Shown piece by piece: positions 636 to 31,887 of a stretch of DNA of 41,804 bases (positions are counted from its first letter, which is position 1; the number at the start of each line of letters is the position of its first letter). Below the pieces are notes generated by a model. The model did not search any database. It was not told the origin of the DNA and saw only the letters and a list, made by a program, of their open reading frames with translations. Where the stretch lies: contig JAFLUH010000009.1 of the NCBI GenBank assembly GCA_022508895.1, positions 1 through 41,804 on the forward strand. The letters are read 5' to 3'. This DNA comes from Oscillospiraceae bacterium. Lineage in GTDB: Bacteria; Bacillota; Clostridia; Oscillospirales; Ruminococcaceae. The translations under genes and the position numbers were made by a program.

Positions 636-980
636 ATGGCGGAAAATGAATACCTACGCGCGGAGGACAAAACCGTTAAAACCGTGCTGGAGCAGATGCC
701 GGCAGACGAAATGCTGTACGATCTCGCCGAGCTGTTCAAGGTCTTCGGGGATTCAACACGGATAAAAATGCTCTATGCGCTGTTTGAGTCGGAGCTTTGC
801 GTGAATGACATCGCCCTGCTGCTTGGTATTACTCAGACGGCGGCTTCGCATCAGCTTCGGGTGCTGAAGGTCAATAAGCTGGTCAAGGCTCGCAAGGAGG
901 GTAAACTCATATTTTATTCACTTGCCGACGACCACGTTTATAAAATAATCGCACAGGGAATGGAACATATAGAAGAATAA
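636..980 (+). CDS. ArsR/SmtB-family metal-sensing repressor (114 aa)
   Basis: This is a winged-helix metalloregulator. The recognition segment is ITQTAASHQLRVLK, followed by a beta-wing (ARKEGKLIFYSLAD). The last helix holds Asp-x-His-x10-His-x2-Glu (DDHVYKIIAQGMEHIEE), the spacing of the alpha-5 Zn/Co site of CzrA and SmtB, with Glu in place of the last His. The alpha-3 site of ArsR/CadC (ELCVCDL) reads ELCVND and so lacks its second Cys. Zn2+-type sensing is therefore more likely than arsenite or Cd/Pb sensing. Start is ATG 636 behind GAAAGGA. It is first in an operon with the HMA protein and P1B-ATPase and probably represses it. Confidence 0.9.
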   Translation: MAENEYLRAEDKTVKTVLEQMPADEMLYDLAELFKVFGDSTRIKMLYALFESELCVNDIALLLGITQTAASHQLRVLKVNKLVKARKEGKLIFYSLADDHVYKIIAQGMEHIEE

Positions 981-1000
981 TTTTTTGGGAGGAAATTTTT

Positions 1001-1216
1001 ATGAAAAAGACATTTAAAATGAAAGACCTGGAGTGCGCTAACTGTGCTTCCAAGATGGAGTGCGCTATCAATAAGCTGGAAGGCGTTGAGGCTACCGTCA
1101 ACTTTATGATGCAGAAGATCACTATCGACGCGCCGGACGACAGGTTCGACGACGTTATTAAGCAGGCTGCCAAAATTTGCAGAAAAATTGAGCCGGACTG
1201 TGAGATAGTGGTATGA
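1001..1216 (+). CDS. stand-alone heavy-metal-associated (HMA) domain protein (71 aa)
   Basis: This is a ferredoxin-fold metallochaperone-type domain with the Cys-x-x-Cys site in LECANCASKM (Cys12 and Cys15 by count), a GVEATVNF strand and a C-terminal EIVV strand. It starts behind GGGAGGAAA and its stop overlaps the ATPase start (ATGA at 1213-1216), so translation is probably coupled. The ATPase that follows has no N-terminal HMA domain, so this peptide is likely the same domain encoded separately, delivering metal to or regulating the pump. Confidence 0.9.
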   Translation: MKKTFKMKDLECANCASKMECAINKLEGVEATVNFMMQKITIDAPDDRFDDVIKQAAKICRKIEPDCEIVV

Positions 1217-3066
1217 CTAAAAGACAGAAAAGAACGCTGGTGCGGATAATCCTCAGCGGCGTTTTGCTCGTTGCGGCTTATCTGCTGCCTCTTGAGGGGT
1301 GGTGGAGGCTGCCCGCTTTCGCCGTTCCCTATTTGCTGGTGGGCTGGGACGTGCTGTGGGGCGCCGTGCGGAATATCGGTCACGGTCAGATTTTTGACGA
1401 AAACTTCCTTATGAGCATTGCCACAATCGGCGCATTCGCTTTGCAGGAGTTCCCCGAGGCAGTGTTCGTTATGCTGTTTTATCAGGTGGGAGAGCTGTTC
1501 CAGAGCTATGCCGTGGGAAAGTCACGGCGGTCTATCTCTCAGCTTATGGATATCTGTCCCGATTACGCCAACATAAGGCGTGAGGGGGAGCTTGTGCAGG
1601 TGGAGCCTGACGAGGTGCAGATAGGCGATATTATTGTGGTGAAGCCTGGGGAGAAGGTGCCGCTGGACGGCGTTGTCGTCAGCGGAAGCTCCTCCCTCGA
1701 TACTGCGGCGCTGACGGGAGAATCGCTGCCTCGGAGCATTGCCGAGGGCGACGACGTTGTCAGCGGGTGCGTCAATCTGGAGGGGCTGCTGGAGGTTCGG
1801 GTCACTAAAGAGTTCGGGCAGTCTACCGTGTCAAAGATACTGGAGCTGGTAGAAAATTCAGCGTCCAAAAAGGCTAAGACCGAGAATTTCATCACTAAAT
1901 TTGCGAGATTTTATACGCCCTGCGTTGTAGGCGCAGCGGTGCTGCTGGCGGTCCTGCCGCCGCTGCTGTTCGGCGGCGAGTGGAGCGAATGGATAGAGCG
2001 GGCGCTGATATTCCTTGTTATCTCCTGCCCCTGTGCGCTGGTCATCTCGGTGCCGCTGAGCTTTTTCGGAGGTATCGGCGGGGCTTCACGGCTGGGTATA
2101 CTTATCAAGGGCGGAAATTATTTCGAGGTGCTTGCCAAGGCGGAAACGGTGGTTTTCGATAAGACGGGGACGCTGACAAAGGGCGTGTTCAGAGTGACCG
2201 CTCTGCACCCCGAAAACTGCACCAAGGAGCAGCTTATCGAGACGGCGGCGCTGGCGGAGAGCTACTCCGACCACCCTATTGCACGGTCTGTGAAGGAGGC
2301 TTACGGCAAAACGACAGAGCAGAGCAGAGTAGCCGACGTCAAAGAGCTGGCGGGGAGAGGCATTTCTGCCGTTATCGACGGGAAAACGGTTCTTGCGGGG
2401 AACGATAAGCTGATGAAGGAGGCGGGGGTCGTCTGCCATGCCTGCCATAAAGTCGGCACCGCTGTTCATGTGGCGGCGGAGGGCGTTTATCTTGGACATA
2501 TCGTTATTTCCGATGAAGTTAAGGAAGATGCAAAGGCGGCTATCGGGCTGCTGAAGGCGGCAGGGGTCAATAAGACCGTTATGCTGACGGGAGACGAGAC
2601 TGCCGTTGGCGAGGCAGTGGCTCAGGAGCTGGGGCTGGACGAGGCGTATACAAAGCTGCTGCCTGCCGATAAGGTGGAGAGAGTCGAGGCGCTGCTGAAC
2701 GGGAAAAAGTCGGGCAGCCTGCTGTTCGTGGGAGACGGGATAAACGACGCTCCCGTGCTGTCACGGGCCGACGTGGGCGTCGCTATGGGCGGTATGGGCT
2801 CCGATGCCGCTATCGAGGCGGCGGACGTGGTATTGATGGACGATAAGCCGTCCAAGATAGCGGCGGCGGTGAAGATAGCCAAAAAGACAATGAGGATAGT
2901 GCGGCAGAATATCGTGTTTGCGCTGGTGGTTAAGTTTGTCGTGCTGGCGCTGGGTGCGCTGGGGCTTGCCAATATGTGGGCGGCGGTGTTCGCCGATGTG
3001 GGGGTGAGCGTGCTGGCGGTGCTTAACGCTATGAGGACGATGGCGGGAGTTAAAGCTGATAAATAA
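1213..3066 (+). CDS. P1B-type heavy-metal-translocating ATPase, Zn/Cd/Pb group (617 aa)
   Basis: This integral-membrane efflux ATPase shows the P1B motif series in order: TGES (about 168-171), transmembrane CPC in SCPCALVIS (about 271-279), phosphorylation site DKTGTLT (Asp316), the HP locus in SDHPIARSV, MLTGDE, and hinge GDGINDAP. The CPC motif, together with DVGVSVLAVLNAMR in the last helix, fits the P1B-2 (ZntA/CadA) group rather than Cu pumps. The usual N-terminal HMA domain is absent: the protein starts with a short basic stretch and goes straight into membrane helices. The upstream 71-aa gene supplies that domain. Substrate is inferred from family features and from the alpha-5-type sensor at the head of the operon. 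Confidence 0.93.
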   Translation: MTKRQKRTLVRIILSGVLLVAAYLLPLEGWWRLPAFAVPYLLVGWDVLWGAVRNIGHGQIFDENFLMSIATIGAFALQEFPEAVFVMLFYQVGELFQSYAVGKSRRSISQLMDICPDYANIRREGELVQVEPDEVQIGDIIVVKPGEKVPLDGVVVSGSSSLDTAALTGESLPRSIAEGDDVVSGCVNLEGLLEVRVTKEFGQSTVSKILELVENSASKKAKTENFITKFARFYTPCVVGAAVLLAVLPPLLFGGEWSEWIERALIFLVISCPCALVISVPLSFFGGIGGASRLGILIKGGNYFEVLAKAETVVFDKTGTLTKGVFRVTALHPENCTKEQLIETAALAESYSDHPIARSVKEAYGKTTEQSRVADVKELAGRGISAVIDGKTVLAGNDKLMKEAGVVCHACHKVGTAVHVAAEGVYLGHIVISDEVKEDAKAAIGLLKAAGVNKTVMLTGDETAVGEAVAQELGLDEAYTKLLPADKVERVEALLNGKKSGSLLFVGDGINDAPVLSRADVGVAMGGMGSDAAIEAADVVLMDDKPSKIAAAVKIAKKTMRIVRQNIVFALVVKFVVLALGALGLANMWAAVFADVGVSVLAVLNAMRTMAGVKADK

Positions 3067-6047: not shown

Positions 6048-8306
6048 TTACGCCTTTATCCTTGCTACTCTCTCGCTGGATACTGCATGCTCTTCCTCTC
6101 TGCGTCCGCACTTGGGGCAGATGTCGCCGATTATGCCTGTGTAGCAGCAGATAGGGTCACGGTCTACGGGGTGGTTGATGGAGCCGTAGCCTATGCCGCT
6201 TTCCTTCATGCAGCGGATCACCTGCTCGAAGGCGTCTAAGTTGCTGAGGGGGTCGCCGTCCAGCTCAATGTAGCTGATGTGACCTGCGTTTGTAAGAGCG
6301 TGGTAGGGTGCCTCTAACTTTATCTTGGAGAAGGCGTCGATGTTGTAGTATACGGGAATGTGGAAGGAGTTGGTGTAGTATTCACGGTCGGTTATGCCCT
6401 TTATCTCGCCGAAGCGCTTCTGGTCTTTTCTGATGAAGGTGCCTGACAGTCCCTCGGCGGGAGTGGCAAGCAGGGAGAAGTTCATGCCTGTTTTCTTGCT
6501 CTCCTCGTCCATGCGCTGGCGCATTCTGCCGATTATGCGAAGTCCAAGCTCCTGTGCTTCCTTGCTTTCGCCGTGGTGTACGCCGATAAGGGCTTTAAGG
6601 CACTCTGCAAGTCCGATGAAGCCCATGGAGAGCGTGCCGTGCTTCAGAATTTCGCTTACGCTGTCCTCGGCGCCTAACTTCTCGGAATCTATCCACACGC
6701 CCTGCCCCATAAGGAACGGGAAGTTGCGGACTTTCTTCTGGGACTGTATCTTGTAGCGGTATTTAAGCTGCTCGATGACAAGGTTCATCTTCTCCTCCAG
6801 CAGCTCGAAAAAGCGTACCACGTCTTTCTCTGCAAGGATACCCAAGCGGGGGAGATTTACGGAAGTGAAGCTCAGGTTGCCTCTGCCGCAGACTATCTCA
6901 CGGGTGGGGTCGTACACGTTGCCGATAACTCTGGTGCGGCAGCCCATGTAGGCTATCTCGGTGTTGTAGTCGCCCGGCTTGTAATATTGCAGGTTGTAGG
7001 GGGCGTCGATGAAGGAGAAGTTGGGGAACAATCTCTTGGCGCTTACCCGACAGGCGAGCTTGAAAAGCTGGTAGTTGGGGTCGCCCTCGTTGTAGTTGAT
7101 GCCTTCCTTTACCTTGAAGATGTGAATGGGGAAGATGGGGGTCTCGCCGTTGCCTAAGCCCGCCTCCTCTGCAAGGAGTATGTTCTTGGTGACCATCTGA
7201 CCCTCTATGCTCACGTCGGTGCCGTAGTTGATGGAGCTGAAGGGGGTCTGGGCGCCTGCACGGCTGTTCATGGTGTTCAGGTTATGTACAAGAGCCTCCA
7301 TCGCCTGATAGGTGGCTCTGTCAGTCTCCTTGAAGGTGAGCTTCTTGGTGTATTCCTGTATGCTCTGGGCTAATTTCTCATCGCCTACCATTTCGGTGAG
7401 GACTGCTTTTTCCTTTGCTTCAAAAGCGGGGTCGCCCGCTAAAACAGGGTGCAGATTTTCCTCGGCAAGAGAATCTATATAGGCGTTTACCTTCTTCTCT
7501 ATCTCGTCCATTTCGGTGCTGCCCGTTTTGAAGCCTATGCCTCTTACTATGTTCCTGCGGTAGAGCTGCTTGTAGGTCTTTTTCACGCCCTCCGCCATTG
7601 CGTAGTCGAAGTTGGGGATAGACTGTCCGCCGTGCTGGTCGTTCTGGTTGCTCTGGATAGCTATGCAGGCAAGGGCGGAGTAGCTTCCTATGTTATTCGG
7701 CTCACGGAGGTAGCCGTGGCCTGTGGAAAAGCCGTTGTTGAACAGCTTGATAAGGTCTATCTGGCAGCAGGTGGTGGTTAACGTGAAGAAGTCAAGGTCG
7801 TGGATATGTATGTCGCCGTCTATGTGCGCCTTGGACTGCTCGGGAGGGAGGACGTACATCTCGTTGAACTGCTTTGCGCCCTCGGAGCCGTATTTCAGCA
7901 TGGTGCCCATGGCGGTGTCGCCGTCTATGTTGGCGTTCTCGCGCTTCATGTCGCTGTCCTTGGCGGGCTTGAAGGTCAGGTCCTCGTAAATGCGCATAAG
8001 GGCAGTGTTCATCTCACGGATACGGGTCCTGTCGGCACGGTACAGGATATATGCCTTTGCGGTGCGGGCGTGTCCGTTCTCTACAAGCACCTTTTCCACG
8101 GTGTCCTGCACCTGCTCAACGGTGGGGGGATTGTTGCTGTCAAAGTCCTGCTTTTCCAGCATTTCGCAGACCTTTTCCGCAAGCTCCGAGGCGGAATCGT
8201 AATCGTTGCCTCCTACCGCTCTTGCCGCTTTGTAGATAGCGTCCGCTATCTTGTCCACACTGAAGGGTACCGTTCTTCCGTCACGCTTTTGTATCTTGGT
8301 TATCAT
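6048..8306 (-). CDS. nrdD: anaerobic (class III) ribonucleotide reductase NrdD, lacking the glycyl-radical motif (752 aa)
   Basis: This family reduces ribonucleoside triphosphates to dNTPs without oxygen, using a glycyl radical made by NrdG. Residues about 3-93 form an ATP-cone (ITKIQKRDGRTVPF). The catalytic barrel has TTTCCQIDL, QHGGQSIPNFDYAM, MGCRTRVIGNVYDP (likely thiyl Cys) and GNLSFTSVNLPRLG. Start is ATG 8306 behind AAAAGGAG, not the in-frame ATG 36 bases upstream. The zinc knuckle is altered: CPVCGYTG reads DPICCYTG (Asp717, Cys720), while CPKC at 730-733 is intact. The family then continues ERIRRITGYL with the radical Gly; here it is ERVARIKA and stop, so Ala752 sits at the Gly position. 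No other frame restores the tail. No nrdG is nearby. Confidence 0.93.
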   Translation of the reverse strand: MITKIQKRDGRTVPFSVDKIADAIYKAARAVGGNDYDSASELAEKVCEMLEKQDFDSNNPPTVEQVQDTVEKVLVENGHARTAKAYILYRADRTRIREMNTALMRIYEDLTFKPAKDSDMKRENANIDGDTAMGTMLKYGSEGAKQFNEMYVLPPEQSKAHIDGDIHIHDLDFFTLTTTCCQIDLIKLFNNGFSTGHGYLREPNNIGSYSALACIAIQSNQNDQHGGQSIPNFDYAMAEGVKKTYKQLYRRNIVRGIGFKTGSTEMDEIEKKVNAYIDSLAEENLHPVLAGDPAFEAKEKAVLTEMVGDEKLAQSIQEYTKKLTFKETDRATYQAMEALVHNLNTMNSRAGAQTPFSSINYGTDVSIEGQMVTKNILLAEEAGLGNGETPIFPIHIFKVKEGINYNEGDPNYQLFKLACRVSAKRLFPNFSFIDAPYNLQYYKPGDYNTEIAYMGCRTRVIGNVYDPTREIVCGRGNLSFTSVNLPRLGILAEKDVVRFFELLEEKMNLVIEQLKYRYKIQSQKKVRNFPFLMGQGVWIDSEKLGAEDSVSEILKHGTLSMGFIGLAECLKALIGVHHGESKEAQELGLRIIGRMRQRMDEESKKTGMNFSLLATPAEGLSGTFIRKDQKRFGEIKGITDREYYTNSFHIPVYYNIDAFSKIKLEAPYHALTNAGHISYIELDGDPLSNLDAFEQVIRCMKESGIGYGSINHPVDRDPICCYTGIIGDICPKCGRREEEHAVSSERVARIKA

Positions 8307-8446: not shown

Positions 8447-8488
8447 ACACAATATATAGTGTTTTTGTCTATGCACTATATATTATAT
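8447..8488 (-). promoter_or_regulatory. two NrdR boxes upstream of nrdD
   Basis: ACACAATATATAGTGT (8447-8462) matches the NrdR box consensus completely, and GCACTATATATTATAT (8473-8488) is a weaker second box. The centres are 26 bases apart. Box 2 overlaps the -10 of the nrdD promoter, and box 1 lies downstream of the start. Repression by the ATP/dATP-sensing NrdR is expected. Confidence 0.88.
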
Positions 8489-28579: not shown

Positions 28580-29665
28580 ATGTCGGATTATACGGTAAGA
28601 CCGCCGCTCGCAAGGTGCAAGGGAAAACAGAAAACGGGATTTGTGCGCTTTCTGATGTCGATCTTCCCCGTCAAGGGAGACGAGGCGGTGGAAATAGTAC
28701 GGAAATTGGTCTTCATCACCGCTGTCGCCGCCTTCGTCATCACCGGCGGTTCCCTGCTGAGCGAAATATTCGGGCAGTTAAGACAGATCTATATCGTGGA
28801 AGGTCAGATAGAGCAGGATAAGATCAACGGCAGCCTGAATCTGTCAGCGGAGGAAATAGACAGGATAACGGAGGAACAGCCCTATATCCGTGACGAGATG
28901 ATGGGGCTTTACTCCGCCAACAGCGATCTGGTGGGCTGGATAAACATAGGCGGAGAGGATAAGCTCATCAACAACGCAGTGGTGCAGGGCACCGATAACG
29001 ATATGTACCTCGTCACCGACTTTTACGGCGGGCACAGCTCCTCCGGCACCATTTTTGCGGACTATCGGGCTCCCTTCGCCCATGACGGCAGCGCTCCCAA
29101 CTTTCTGGTGCTGTTCGGACACAATACCTCCGCTCAGATATCCTTCTCCAAGGTGACCAGATATTACTACGACAGGGATAATCTGGGCGACGGCACCAAT
29201 CCTGACGTCAGCTTCTACCGAAAGTACCCCACCATTTATTTTGACACGCTTAATCAGGAGGGTGAATACAAGGTGTTCGCCGTTTGCCTGTTCAACACCG
29301 AGGAGCAGTACGGCGAGACGTACAACTACTTAAGACGCGGTCAGCCCTTTATAAACAAAGAGGACTTCAACGCATATATTCTGGATATAATGGATAGGAG
29401 CCTGTTGTTTACCGATGTGGATCTGCAGTACGGAGACGATATCCTCTGCCTTTCCACCTGCTACTTCCCCTTCGGCATGGAGTATGAAAATGTACGCTGC
29501 GCCGTGTTCGCAAGAAAGATCAGAGAGGGAGAAAGCCGTGAGGTGAATATCGACGCCGCCAGAAGAAACTACGCATGGGTAGGCTGGCAGCAGGCAAAGG
29601 ACAGAGGTCTCTGCGGAAACGGGCAGAGAGTGTGGGATTACAGAAAATATCTGCTTTCTTATTGA
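28580..29665 (+). CDS. class B sortase 1 of a tandem set (361 aa)
   Basis: Sortases are membrane transpeptidases that cut a sorting signal and attach proteins to the wall or to each other. A cytoplasmic basic tail with FPVKGDEAVEIVRK leads into one TM helix (about 42-62). The sortase domain has the GWINIGGEDKLINNAVVQGTDN start, catalytic His181 (LFGHN), Cys294 (CLSTCYFP) and Arg306 (NVRCAVF). The pattern is that of SrtB with longer N-terminal helices. No protein with an obvious sorting motif is in the window. It is in an operon with two paralogs, 49 bases before the second. Confidence 0.9.
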   Translation: MSDYTVRPPLARCKGKQKTGFVRFLMSIFPVKGDEAVEIVRKLVFITAVAAFVITGGSLLSEIFGQLRQIYIVEGQIEQDKINGSLNLSAEEIDRITEEQPYIRDEMMGLYSANSDLVGWINIGGEDKLINNAVVQGTDNDMYLVTDFYGGHSSSGTIFADYRAPFAHDGSAPNFLVLFGHNTSAQISFSKVTRYYYDRDNLGDGTNPDVSFYRKYPTIYFDTLNQEGEYKVFAVCLFNTEEQYGETYNYLRRGQPFINKEDFNAYILDIMDRSLLFTDVDLQYGDDILCLSTCYFPFGMEYENVRCAVFARKIREGESREVNIDAARRNYAWVGWQQAKDRGLCGNGQRVWDYRKYLLSY

Positions 29666-29714
29666 TACATTAAAAAAACGCTTTCTCAAATTTTCAGTTA
29701 CGGAGGTAGAGGTC

Positions 29715-30806
29715 ATGTCCGAGAATACCGAGAAAAAACAAAACGTGCTTTTGAAAATGTTCGTTCCCATGTAGGGGGACAGCAGGGGCACGCTTATAAG
29801 AAAAATCTTCTCTATACTGTGCATCGTTGTGGCGATAGTGTGCGCCATCGTGGTGACGGTGGAATTTACCCGCAGAAGCGAAGACGAACAGATTATAGAC
29901 GGTCTGTCAAATCTTATGGCGGGGAGCGCCTCGGGAAGCTTTTCCATCAGCGATGAAAAGGTGGAGGAGATAAAGAAGGAAGAACCCGAAATACTGGATA
30001 AGTTTATCGACCTTTACGCCGAGAACAACGAGATCGTAGGCTGGATCACGGTGGGCGGCGGAGATATACTGATGAGCTATCCCGTTATGATGAACGAGGA
30101 GGACACCGAGTATTATCTGCACCGCAATTTCTACAAGGACTACAGCTACAGCGGCTCCATTTTCTGCGATAATCATGTGCTTCCCTTCACTGACGCGCAT
30201 AATCTGCTTATTTACGGTCATCACATGGCTTCAGGCGAATATTTCGGAAAGCTTACATACTATAACCCATACGCCGGCGGTACCCGTGCAAGCAGGTTCA
30301 TCGAAACCTATAAGGCTTACCCTACCTTGCAGTTCGACACCCTCTGGGAGGAGGGCACCTACAAGATATTCGCAGGCATATTCATAAACGTAAAGGAAAA
30401 GGACGGCTACGTTTACCCCTATCACAGAAAGAGACAGTTCAAAAACGAGCTGGAATTCATGGACTTCATGGGCAATATAATGGACAGAAGTATGTTCTAC
30501 ACCGATGTGGACGTGGAGTACGGCGATCGGATAATCTCGCTTTCCACCTGCTGGTACTATCCCGTTGAAACCGGCGAGGAAACACGCTTCGTGCTGTTTG
30601 CAAGAAAGGTCAGAGAGGGCGAGGATCCCGGCGTTGACGTGGACAAGATCGTGGTCAATCCCGACCCGCTGTTCTTCGATACATATTACAAACAGCTTGG
30701 CGGCTCATGGGGCGGACGTACATGGGATAAGGATTATCCTTGGCTCGTAAAGGATTTCGATAAGTATACCGATATAATCGACAGTACCGGAAAATCAGCG
30801 TCATAA
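29715..30806 (+). pseudogene. class B sortase 2, interrupted by an in-frame TAG
   Basis: ATG 29715, with GGAGG eight bases upstream, opens a frame that reads 19 codons (MSENTEKKQN...FVPM) to TAG at 29772-29774, then continues without interruption to 30806. The TAG falls at the Lys of the FPxKGD motif shared by sortases 1 and 3 (AAG there, TAG here). TM and catalytic domain follow with all key residues: His169 (IYGHHM), Cys279 (LSTCWYYP), Arg291 (TRFVLF), numbering the TAG as residue 20. There is no decay beyond the single change. In-frame GTG codons downstream lie inside the TM helix and lack a ribosome site. It may be a recent nonsense allele or be read through. Confidence 0.85.
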
Positions 30807-30837
30807 CGGACATTCATAAGGAAGGTGCAATTGAAAA

Positions 30838-31887
30838 ATGCCTGAGTTTGAACCTATAAGAAAAAAAGGCGGGAGAAAGAAAAAACAGACCGTCGCTCAG
30901 TCCCTTTTCCCCTGCAAGGGAGACAGCGTGGGCGAGGTTATCAGAAAGATAGTTTTCCTGCTCGCCATTCTGACGCTGATAGGCGCTACCGCCGTGATAA
31001 TATGGTTTTACTTCGTCCGCACGGATAACCTCAACAAGGAGGTCCAGGATATGCTGAGCCACCGCGGCGAGTCCTCCAACGACGTTATCTCGATAAAGAT
31101 AAACTATACCAACGAGGACGGCACAGTTGAGGAAAAAGAGGTCACCATTCTTGAGGAATATGCGGAGATGTATCAGGAATATCCCGATATGGTGGGCTTT
31201 ATCGAGATATATCCGTGGATACAGTATCCTGTGATGCAGACCACCGACAACGATTTCTACCTGCATCACAACTTCTATAAGGTCCCCACCGAGAACGGTA
31301 CAATATTCGCAGATTACGAGGTGCCCATAACGGCGGATTCGATGCCTGCAAATACCATTATTTACGGGCATAACCTTCTCACAAGAAATATGTTCGAGCC
31401 GCTGTCATACTACAGGAGACAGGGGATAGATTTCCTGAAGGAAAACTATCTGGTGACTTTCGATACCCTTTACGAGAAAAATAAGTACATTATTTTCGCA
31501 GTGTTCCTTGCCAACACCACCGAAAACTGGGGCGAGGTGTTCAATTATCAGAATTTTGTGACATTCGACTCCAAAAGCGAATTCGACGGCTTCGTCGCGG
31601 AATGTCTGGACAGGAGCTATTACTACACGGGTATAGACCTGGAGTACGGCGACGAGCTGCTTACGCTGTCTACCTGCGACTTCTCCTGCCTCAGCGACAT
31701 GAGAATGGTCGTTGTGGCAAGAAAGGTCCGTCCGGGCGAAAGCCCCGTTCTGGATACCGATACCTTTATCGACAACAGCGGCTATGACGAAAACTGGAAG
31801 CTGAAGCGCAAAATGTGCGAGGCTTACGGCGTCGCATGGGCGGGAAGACAGTGGGATACCTCATGGATAAAGGATTTTGAGGAGTAA
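30838..31887 (+). CDS. class B sortase 3 of a tandem set (349 aa)
   Basis: The tail (KKGGRKKKQ...LFPCKGDSVGEVIRK) is followed by a TM helix at about 39-60. The sortase domain has GFIEIYPWIQYPVMQTTDNDFYLHHNF, catalytic His178 (IIYGHNL), Cys280 (TLSTCDF) and Arg289 (DMRMVVVARK). The Thr-Leu-Ser-Thr-Cys box is the closest of the three to the canonical SrtB motif. A further conserved end, GVAWAGRQWDTSW, resembles the C-termini of the other two (VGWQQAKD, GGRTWDKDYPW). It lies 31 bases after sortase 2 and 19 before the SpoIID-like gene. Confidence 0.9.
   Translation: MPEFEPIRKKGGRKKKQTVAQSLFPCKGDSVGEVIRKIVFLLAILTLIGATAVIIWFYFVRTDNLNKEVQDMLSHRGESSNDVISIKINYTNEDGTVEEKEVTILEEYAEMYQEYPDMVGFIEIYPWIQYPVMQTTDNDFYLHHNFYKVPTENGTIFADYEVPITADSMPANTIIYGHNLLTRNMFEPLSYYRRQGIDFLKENYLVTFDTLYEKNKYIIFAVFLANTTENWGEVFNYQNFVTFDSKSEFDGFVAECLDRSYYYTGIDLEYGDELLTLSTCDFSCLSDMRMVVVARKVRPGESPVLDTDTFIDNSGYDENWKLKRKMCEAYGVAWAGRQWDTSWIKDFEE

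Follow-up and report, generated by a model that had tools for sequence, protein, structure and literature searches.

A tail-less NrdD and a small glycyl-radical protein as a probable split class III ribonucleotide reductase

Class III (anaerobic) ribonucleotide reductases have been described in a fused form, in which the catalytic chain, NrdD, also bears the radical glycine and the C-terminal tail around it. We analyzed an nrdD gene that departs from this form, located in a 41,804-nucleotide stretch of the genome of a gut bacterium of the Oscillospiraceae (contig JAFLUH010000009.1 of assembly GCA_022508895.1; the whole stretch is called the window below). Its product stops at the position of the radical glycine, and the tail is encoded by a separate short gene, locus L171, of the same genome. 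We put the probability that the window NrdD and the L171 small protein form a split class III reductase at roughly 88%. An earlier note on this DNA had left two interpretations side by side, a gene newly inactivated or a radical supplied in trans; the second now has support and the first does not.

A close parallel comes from pyruvate formate-lyase (PFL). According to PMC8683613, oxygen cuts the PFL chain at the radical glycine and the remainder, which extends to residue 733, binds the small protein YfiD; the binding depends on residues 696-733 of PFL and on the N-terminal portion of YfiD, and YfiD is charged well only when damaged PFL is present. By analogy, the window NrdD looks as if it were born in the oxygen-cut state, with an arrangement like that of PFL and YfiD made permanent.

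The end of the window NrdD

The 3’ end of the window nrdD open reading frame (ORF) reads ...GIIGDICPKCGRREEEHAVSSERVARIKA-TAA, Ala752 is the final residue, and the C-terminal residues of the protein are ...CPKCGRREEEHAVSSERVARIKA (Table 1). In fused homologues the radical glycine lies 15-21 residues past the CPxC-plus-two point (exactly 17 in 16 of the 32 measured), and the window chain stops at 17 residues past the same point. Since this is the glycine spacing of fused NrdDs, Ala752 aligns with the radical glycine; the ORF, its stop codon and the CPxC-to-end spacing all bear out the earlier note, which had placed the stop there. Tail-less NrdDs as a group, the window’s included, end at 15-22 residues in 43 of 47 cases and at 24, 29, 31 and 42 in the remaining four, and an ER[IVL]-like segment lies at most 16 residues from the end in 43/47 (a match in L077 was judged to be chance and was not counted). 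The radical glycine and tail that a class III NrdD carries on a single chain are thus absent from the window protein. No frame downstream of the window nrdD encodes the radical tail, as the earlier note had also found, although the tail that it took to be missing is present elsewhere in the genome. One downstream frame contains GVIVQAK followed by a stop, which we consider a chance resemblance, as relatives that are 93% identical have no such tail.

The remainder of the chain appears intact. Both domains score above their curated cut-offs (NRDD, PF13597, 630.9 bits; ATP-cone, PF03477, 83.8 bits), and the family model NF005497 gives 1096.9 bits against a cut-off of 764. The Cys456 and Cys180 columns are invariant across 22 aligned NrdDs, and an asparagine occupies the Asn435 position (formate type). 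The alignment of the two cysteines, the ATP-cone score and a perfect NrdR-type box agree with the earlier statement that the thiyl-cysteine region, ATP-cone and promoter are preserved. The same note had read Asp717, correctly identified at the position of the first zinc cysteine, as a further anomaly. The column is aspartate in 22/22 aligned NrdDs of the window-type family, fused members among them, while remoter NrdDs (8P23; the Eggerthella phage NrdD) carry cysteine there; because Asp717 is common to fused members of the family, it is no defect or sign of decay of the window gene. The ratio of nonsynonymous to synonymous substitution rates (dN/dS) of nrdD is 0.04-0.07 in five of six comparisons, the sixth being saturated in dS, and judged by this ratio the gene is under purifying selection.

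Alignment of Ala752 with the radical glycine raises the possibility that the alanine itself bears the radical, in the manner of the aminoacyl radical enzymes, and Ala, Ser and Thr radicals have been described in PFL-like enzymes (PMC11528403). The position, however, varies among relatives of the window NrdD (Ala, Leu, Glu, Val, Tyr, Asp, Pro and others) and the loop that should follow it is missing; aminoacyl radical enzymes are recognized by a radical loop that is complete except that a conserved Ala, Ser or Thr takes the place of the glycine, which is not what the window NrdD has. We give an alanyl radical almost no weight.

A separate small protein with the radical tail

The missing tail forms part of a 101-residue protein of its own, encoded on another contig at G000:C150:1866-2171 (+), where G000 is the window’s own genome (G-numbers denote genomes and L-numbers fetched loci). 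A 37-residue tail query has a single match place in this genome, at G000:C150:2031-2132. The ATG of the L171 ORF is preceded by a ribosome-binding site, GAAAGGGAGAC, and the product is MIKVNVIGGTLSDAEKEAYVQRARTLYPEKRINEMNITVVDDDFVDIEYHYDTTPFQRIRRVTGYLAGTLDRFNNAKKAEVRDRVKHDVTVSDFEDVYLEA: 56 N-terminal residues that belong to no known family, followed by QRIRRVTGYLAGTLDRFNNAKKAEVRDRVKH, with the radical loop RVTGY. Residues 55-87 match the end of the NRDD model PF13597, for which the window NrdD and the small protein are the only matches in the genome, and the small protein is at neither of the two G000 places matched by PF01228 at an expectation value (E) ≤ 1. By these family matches the small protein is NrdD-type and not YfiD-type. 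The short RxxGY protein that the earlier note had suggested looking for is therefore present, with an NrdD-type tail instead of the PF01228 type.

Small proteins of this kind are well conserved. The N-terminal domain is recognizable in all 55 aligned small proteins and the radical loop is nearly identical among them; 58 small ORFs were collected, of which three had no start codon in the length range and were excluded. As the collecting pattern contained the glycine, its conservation was re-checked pattern-free: in alignments made independently of the glycine, it is kept in 59/59 bacterial loci with a short tail frame (a few of these loci represent the same place twice) and in 66/66 viral loci with a short tail frame, from a set of 80 viral loci. 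The dN/dS of the small gene is 0.02-0.06 in five of eight comparisons, the other three being saturated in dS, and by this measure the small gene, too, is under purifying selection.

The two proteins map to complementary parts of the NrdD of P. copri. The alignment of the window NrdD with chain 8P23_A runs to residue 705, and the L107 small protein takes in residues 707-740, with its glycine at 715; the numbering of 8P23_A runs 4 above that of the paper, so that this residue is Gly711 of P. copri NrdD. This complementary mapping indicates that the two chains together make up one known enzyme. Two chains that cover one fused chain with little overlap might also be ligated or trans-spliced after translation, but the small protein has its own start and ribosome-binding site, its conserved N-terminal domain would come to sit between the two halves, and neither protein matched a splicing domain, which makes such joining highly improbable.

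No Pfam or NCBIfam family matches the first 54-56 residues of the small protein over its cut-off, and hhalign found no common origin of this domain with NrdD. A relationship to the ribosome hibernation factors HPF/YfiA was considered and set aside: the top Foldseek matches reached only E 0.019 with template modelling scores (TM-scores) of 0.32-0.46 in the first six rows, obtained with a model having a predicted local distance difference test score (pLDDT) of 68, and when profiles were compared, using 21 HPF sequences from the genus, the probability was 0.1%. At the other end of the protein, the last 8-10 residues are recurrently acidic in small proteins of the window’s genus (FEDVYLEA, CEDVYVDAV, EEDIYISA), a feature that the small proteins aligned from other branches lack, as do the fused tails inspected. 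In G068 the second tail gene (L174:4738-5583), perhaps part of a prophage, is a scanned frame of 281 residues in which an NrdD-type tail is joined to an upstream part; the latter resembles the anti-CRISPR family AcrIC5 at a score below threshold (24.8 bits, cut-off 27).

Distribution, reductase complement and regulation

The genus set comprised 71 genomes searched with the window NrdD. A window-type NrdD was found in 52, with a fused tail only in 16, both forms in 5, a separate tail only in 28 and neither in 3. At the level of the order we evenly drew 247 genomes that are at least 90% complete, defining window-type NrdDs by E ≤ 1e-100 and ‘separate’ tails as open frames of fewer than 300 residues (start codons were checked in the fetched loci alone). 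Window-type NrdDs occur in 107 of these genomes and the tail in 108; of the 107, 30 have just the fused tail, 52 just the separate one and 24 the two together, and the last, G159, shows neither and has a second, full-length NrdD. A short-frame tail occurs in just two of the 140 order-sample genomes that have no window-type NrdD: in G195 it is a piece of an NrdD lying at the start of a contig, and G317 encodes a remote NrdD. In the split-only group, 42 of the 52 genomes have the small gene on the same strand as the nrdD match, 90-514 base pairs downstream of it. Further tail-less NrdDs on other branches of the tree are accompanied by the small gene in 19 of 20 genomes and by a fused tail in none, and in the single-contig genome G234, which has a window-type NrdD, the only tail lies in a short frame. 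Across the phylum (398 genomes, tail query), the tail was found in 147; at least 21 of these carry it in a short frame alone, and at least 8 carry both forms. The presence of the tail protein in the window’s genome and this tight co-occurrence with tail-less NrdDs support a radical supplied in trans, which the earlier note had compared to YfiD/GrcA. Two congeners are unusual in their tail genes: G037 combines NrdDs of both kinds, one fused and one tail-less, with two small tail genes (L179, L180), and would thus provide a natural pairing test, and G033 has two small tail genes (L153 among them).

The 24 order-sample genomes with both a fused and a separate tail suggest that a genome can keep the small protein as a spare. 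It might then be only a replacement part for oxygen damage, or a regulator, with the tail-less NrdD started by other means, one candidate being the deoxyadenosyl radical of NrdG acting directly. Against this, the separate tail stands alone in 52 genomes, tail-less NrdDs are rarely found without the small gene, and the tail is conserved around the glycine; we regard a mere spare or regulator as unlikely.

Among the best 80 of 242 homologues, taken from genome records (L031-L110), 46 are tail-less and 34 fused, and the same stop region occurs in separately assembled genomes such as that of isolate L077 (Merdimmobilis hominis, NZ_LT629939.1), in one long scaffold; Gallibacter intestinalis (L106) is another cultured species of the split kind. 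A truncation shared by 46/80 homologues, in a gene under purifying selection, is neither a fresh mutation nor an error. The window does come from a draft assembly of 175 contigs, in which an assembly or sequencing error could have removed the tail; recurrence of the stop region in independent assemblies (L077) and the short-frame tail as the only one in single-contig G234 make such an error exceedingly improbable. A FastTree phylogeny of 79 NrdD cores, cut before the tail (the fused L099 and L104 were left out), requires at least seven changes of state, four of them forced by well-supported branches. The tree itself gives no direction of change; since class III reductases have been described in the fused form, we read the changes mainly as repeated losses of the tail.

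The reductase complement of the genome bears on whether nrdD is dying or newly broken, with another reductase or salvage supplying deoxynucleotides. The genome is rated 100% complete. It encodes NrdG, for which the earlier note had proposed a search (G000:C115:3252-3692 (+), 137.8 bits, cut-off 126.1), and the second nrdD, nrdJ or nrdAB sought alongside did not appear: there is one full NrdD and no class I/II large subunit. The profile for that subunit, PF02867, matched in 0/71 genomes of the genus and was positive in 11 of 14 control genomes. A broken gene would explain why the essential glycine is absent from the chain, and three near-complete congeners (G008, G013 and G029, 95-99% complete), in which neither NRDD nor a class I/II large subunit was found, make salvage or undetected enzymes conceivable in the genus; in these three, the gene may have been lost from the bins or the reductase may be too divergent. 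The tail-less state of 46/80 homologues, purifying selection, the NrdR-type boxes described below and the absence of PF02867 matches all speak against it, and new inactivation with another reductase serving the cell, one of the two options of the earlier note, is in our judgment very unlikely.

Two NrdR-type boxes precede the window nrdD (Table 1), scored against what we take to be the NrdR box consensus. Boxes of at least 13/16 also precede most of the small genes (33/54), compared with 15/208 control ORFs, which were mechanical ORFs of at least 150 codons from the same loci and include nrdD itself in at least one of the 15 positives (L077); Fisher’s exact P is 1.5e-16 when related sequences are counted as independent.

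Small tail genes also occur in predicted viral sequences. IMG/VR was scanned with the L107 small protein and 80 of 107 loci were kept; in L301-L315 the match spans most of the small protein. Simple motifs identified an nrdD ORF in 21 of the 80 viral loci, 14 fused and 7 tail-less with a separate tail, and in six of these seven (L308, L309, L310, L313, L337 and L356, with L308 and L309 near-copies) the tail-less nrdD and the small gene are adjacent. The isolated Eggerthella phage EL753P1 (OP172808.1, L381) has a tail-less nrdD with what looks by eye like an intein-like insert after YMGC; a small ORF of this phage (L381:3870-4085) stops after FERIRRI, and the rest of the radical tail lies, unannotated, in another frame.

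Two other gene groups of the window were recognized by eye: three consecutive plus-strand ORFs at 28580-31887 that resemble paralogous class B type sortases, and, in a row at 636-3066, an ArsR-type regulator, a heavy-metal-associated domain and a P-type metal ATPase.

Table 1. Features of the window nrdD and its promoter.
Feature	Position	Strand	Remark
nrdD, class III reductase catalytic chain without glycyl-radical tail	6048..8306	minus	ATG at 8306; 752 residues
Last codon GCG (Ala752) and TAA stop (6048-6050)	6048..6053	minus	Aligned with radical Gly of fused NrdDs
Retained ERVARIK segment before the break	6054..6074	minus	Compared as ER[IVL]-like end segment
Metal-site region RDPICCYTGIIGDICPKC	6108..6161	minus	Asp717, Cys720, Cys730 and Cys733 are invariant columns
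Cys456 codon	6939..6941	minus	Aligned with thiyl-radical Cys416 of P. copri NrdD (8P23_A residue 420)
Cys180 codon	7767..7769	minus	Aligned with Cys171 of P. copri NrdD (8P23_A residue 175)
NrdR-type box ACACTATATATTGTGT	8447..8462	minus	16/16 to NrdR box consensus; nrdD promoter
Second NrdR-type box ATATAATATATAGTGC	8473..8488	minus	13/16 to NrdR box consensus

Proposed enzyme and comparison with known systems

Docking, installation of the radical on the small protein, radical transfer and an advantage in repair are what we infer from the arrangement of the two chains. The window NrdD would supply the ATP-cone, catalytic barrel, thiyl cysteine and zinc knuckle, its chain ending at the radical glycine position, and the small protein would contribute the RVTGY loop and the C-terminal tail behind its 56-residue N-terminal domain. 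The small protein may dock on the ERVARIK end of NrdD such that the radical loop enters the barrel. NrdG would take hydrogen from the glycine of the small protein, on or off NrdD, and the radical would then move to Cys456 and start reduction with formate. Upon oxygen damage, replacement of the small protein alone might suffice. A likely evolutionary route is that the tail was duplicated as a spare part and the fused copy subsequently lost several times, and the spare tail beside a fused enzyme in 24 sampled genomes is a plausible forerunner of the split form. More tentatively, and in our view doubtfully as a whole, the enzyme could be an obligate three-component class III reductase, in which an NrdG-charged, freely exchangeable small protein shuttles between NrdD dimers and plays the part of dissociable radical subunit that NrdB has in class I, its N-terminal domain acts as both dock and safety catch, and phages carry the same cartridge for their own or the host’s tail-less NrdD.

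Several observations weigh against a split enzyme or weaken the evidence for it. The window’s own small gene is on a contig other than that of nrdD, placing its genome among the 10 unlinked split-only cases, and its best upstream box scores only 12/16, a value that 10 of 100 shuffled sequences also reach; the TATTGCA-TATAAT promoter region of the gene can be aligned with that of several congeners that keep a better box, and other congeners of the subclade show no alignment there. Three congeners with a window-type NrdD show neither form of tail (G003, G018 and G054, 72-76% complete), and nor does G072, the one miss among the 20 further tail-less genomes. Conversely, a complete window-type NrdD is lacking in five congeners that do have the small gene (G023, G028, G039, G048 and G056, 58-86% complete), G056 holding a piece of one and the other four a remote NrdD. 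The dS values are high (0.95-2.55), so that the dN/dS ratios are rough. The AlphaFold models are mediocre: that of the window NrdD, with a pLDDT of 69.6 and values mostly below 50 after residue 712, was not used, and that of the small protein has a pLDDT of 68. Finally, as its N-terminal domain has no identified family, docking of the small protein draws no support from homology.

If the split enzyme is real, it would be a natural enzyme with a detached radical domain, one that could be added, removed, labelled or exchanged at will, and the way NrdG installs the radical, the transfer of that radical and the allosteric control exerted by deoxyadenosine triphosphate (dATP) would become separately measurable. 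The fused, both and separate stages suggest how a repair part could become obligatory. PMC8683613 speculates that glycyl radical enzymes besides PFL have spare parts, and the small proteins would be a candidate family of this kind in many gut anaerobes and phages. For annotation, it follows that a tail-less NrdD should not be labelled a pseudogene and that short partner genes are easily missed.

We found no description of a split NrdD in the openly licensed literature of PubMed Central; it may have been described elsewhere. As the small protein does not match PF01228 and the window NrdD lacks the radical glycine on its own chain, neither is filed here as an ordinary member of a known group. 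With the class III NrdD/NrdG system of P. copri (PDB 8P23) the window system shares the ATP-cone, the NRDD barrel, equivalents of Cys416, Cys171 and Asn435, NrdG and NrdR-type boxes, and it differs in having a second polypeptide, from a gene elsewhere, for the radical glycine and C-terminal tail. Like GrcA/YfiD and Y06I of phage T4, this second chain is a small protein in its own right, in which some 55-60 residues of N-terminal extension precede a glycyl-radical tail, and, as with PFL in those pairs, the larger enzyme ends just before the glycine. In contrast to GrcA/YfiD and Y06I, the tail is of the PF13597-end type instead of the PFL-type PF01228, the enzyme served is probably a reductase, and in 52 sampled genomes the separate tail is the only one found, which is not the repair of a damaged enzyme. 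The N-terminal domain matches no family in the family searches, a comparison in which YfiD itself was not included. A ribonucleotide reductase of two chains has a precedent in the split class II enzyme NrdJa/NrdJb of Pseudomonas aeruginosa. We know of no relationship between the radical subunit of class I enzymes and the small glycyl protein. The class I pair NrdA and NrdB is nevertheless alike in that its radical is made in a separate subunit (PMC9669993), the radical being metal-based or tyrosyl there and glycyl in the enzyme proposed here.

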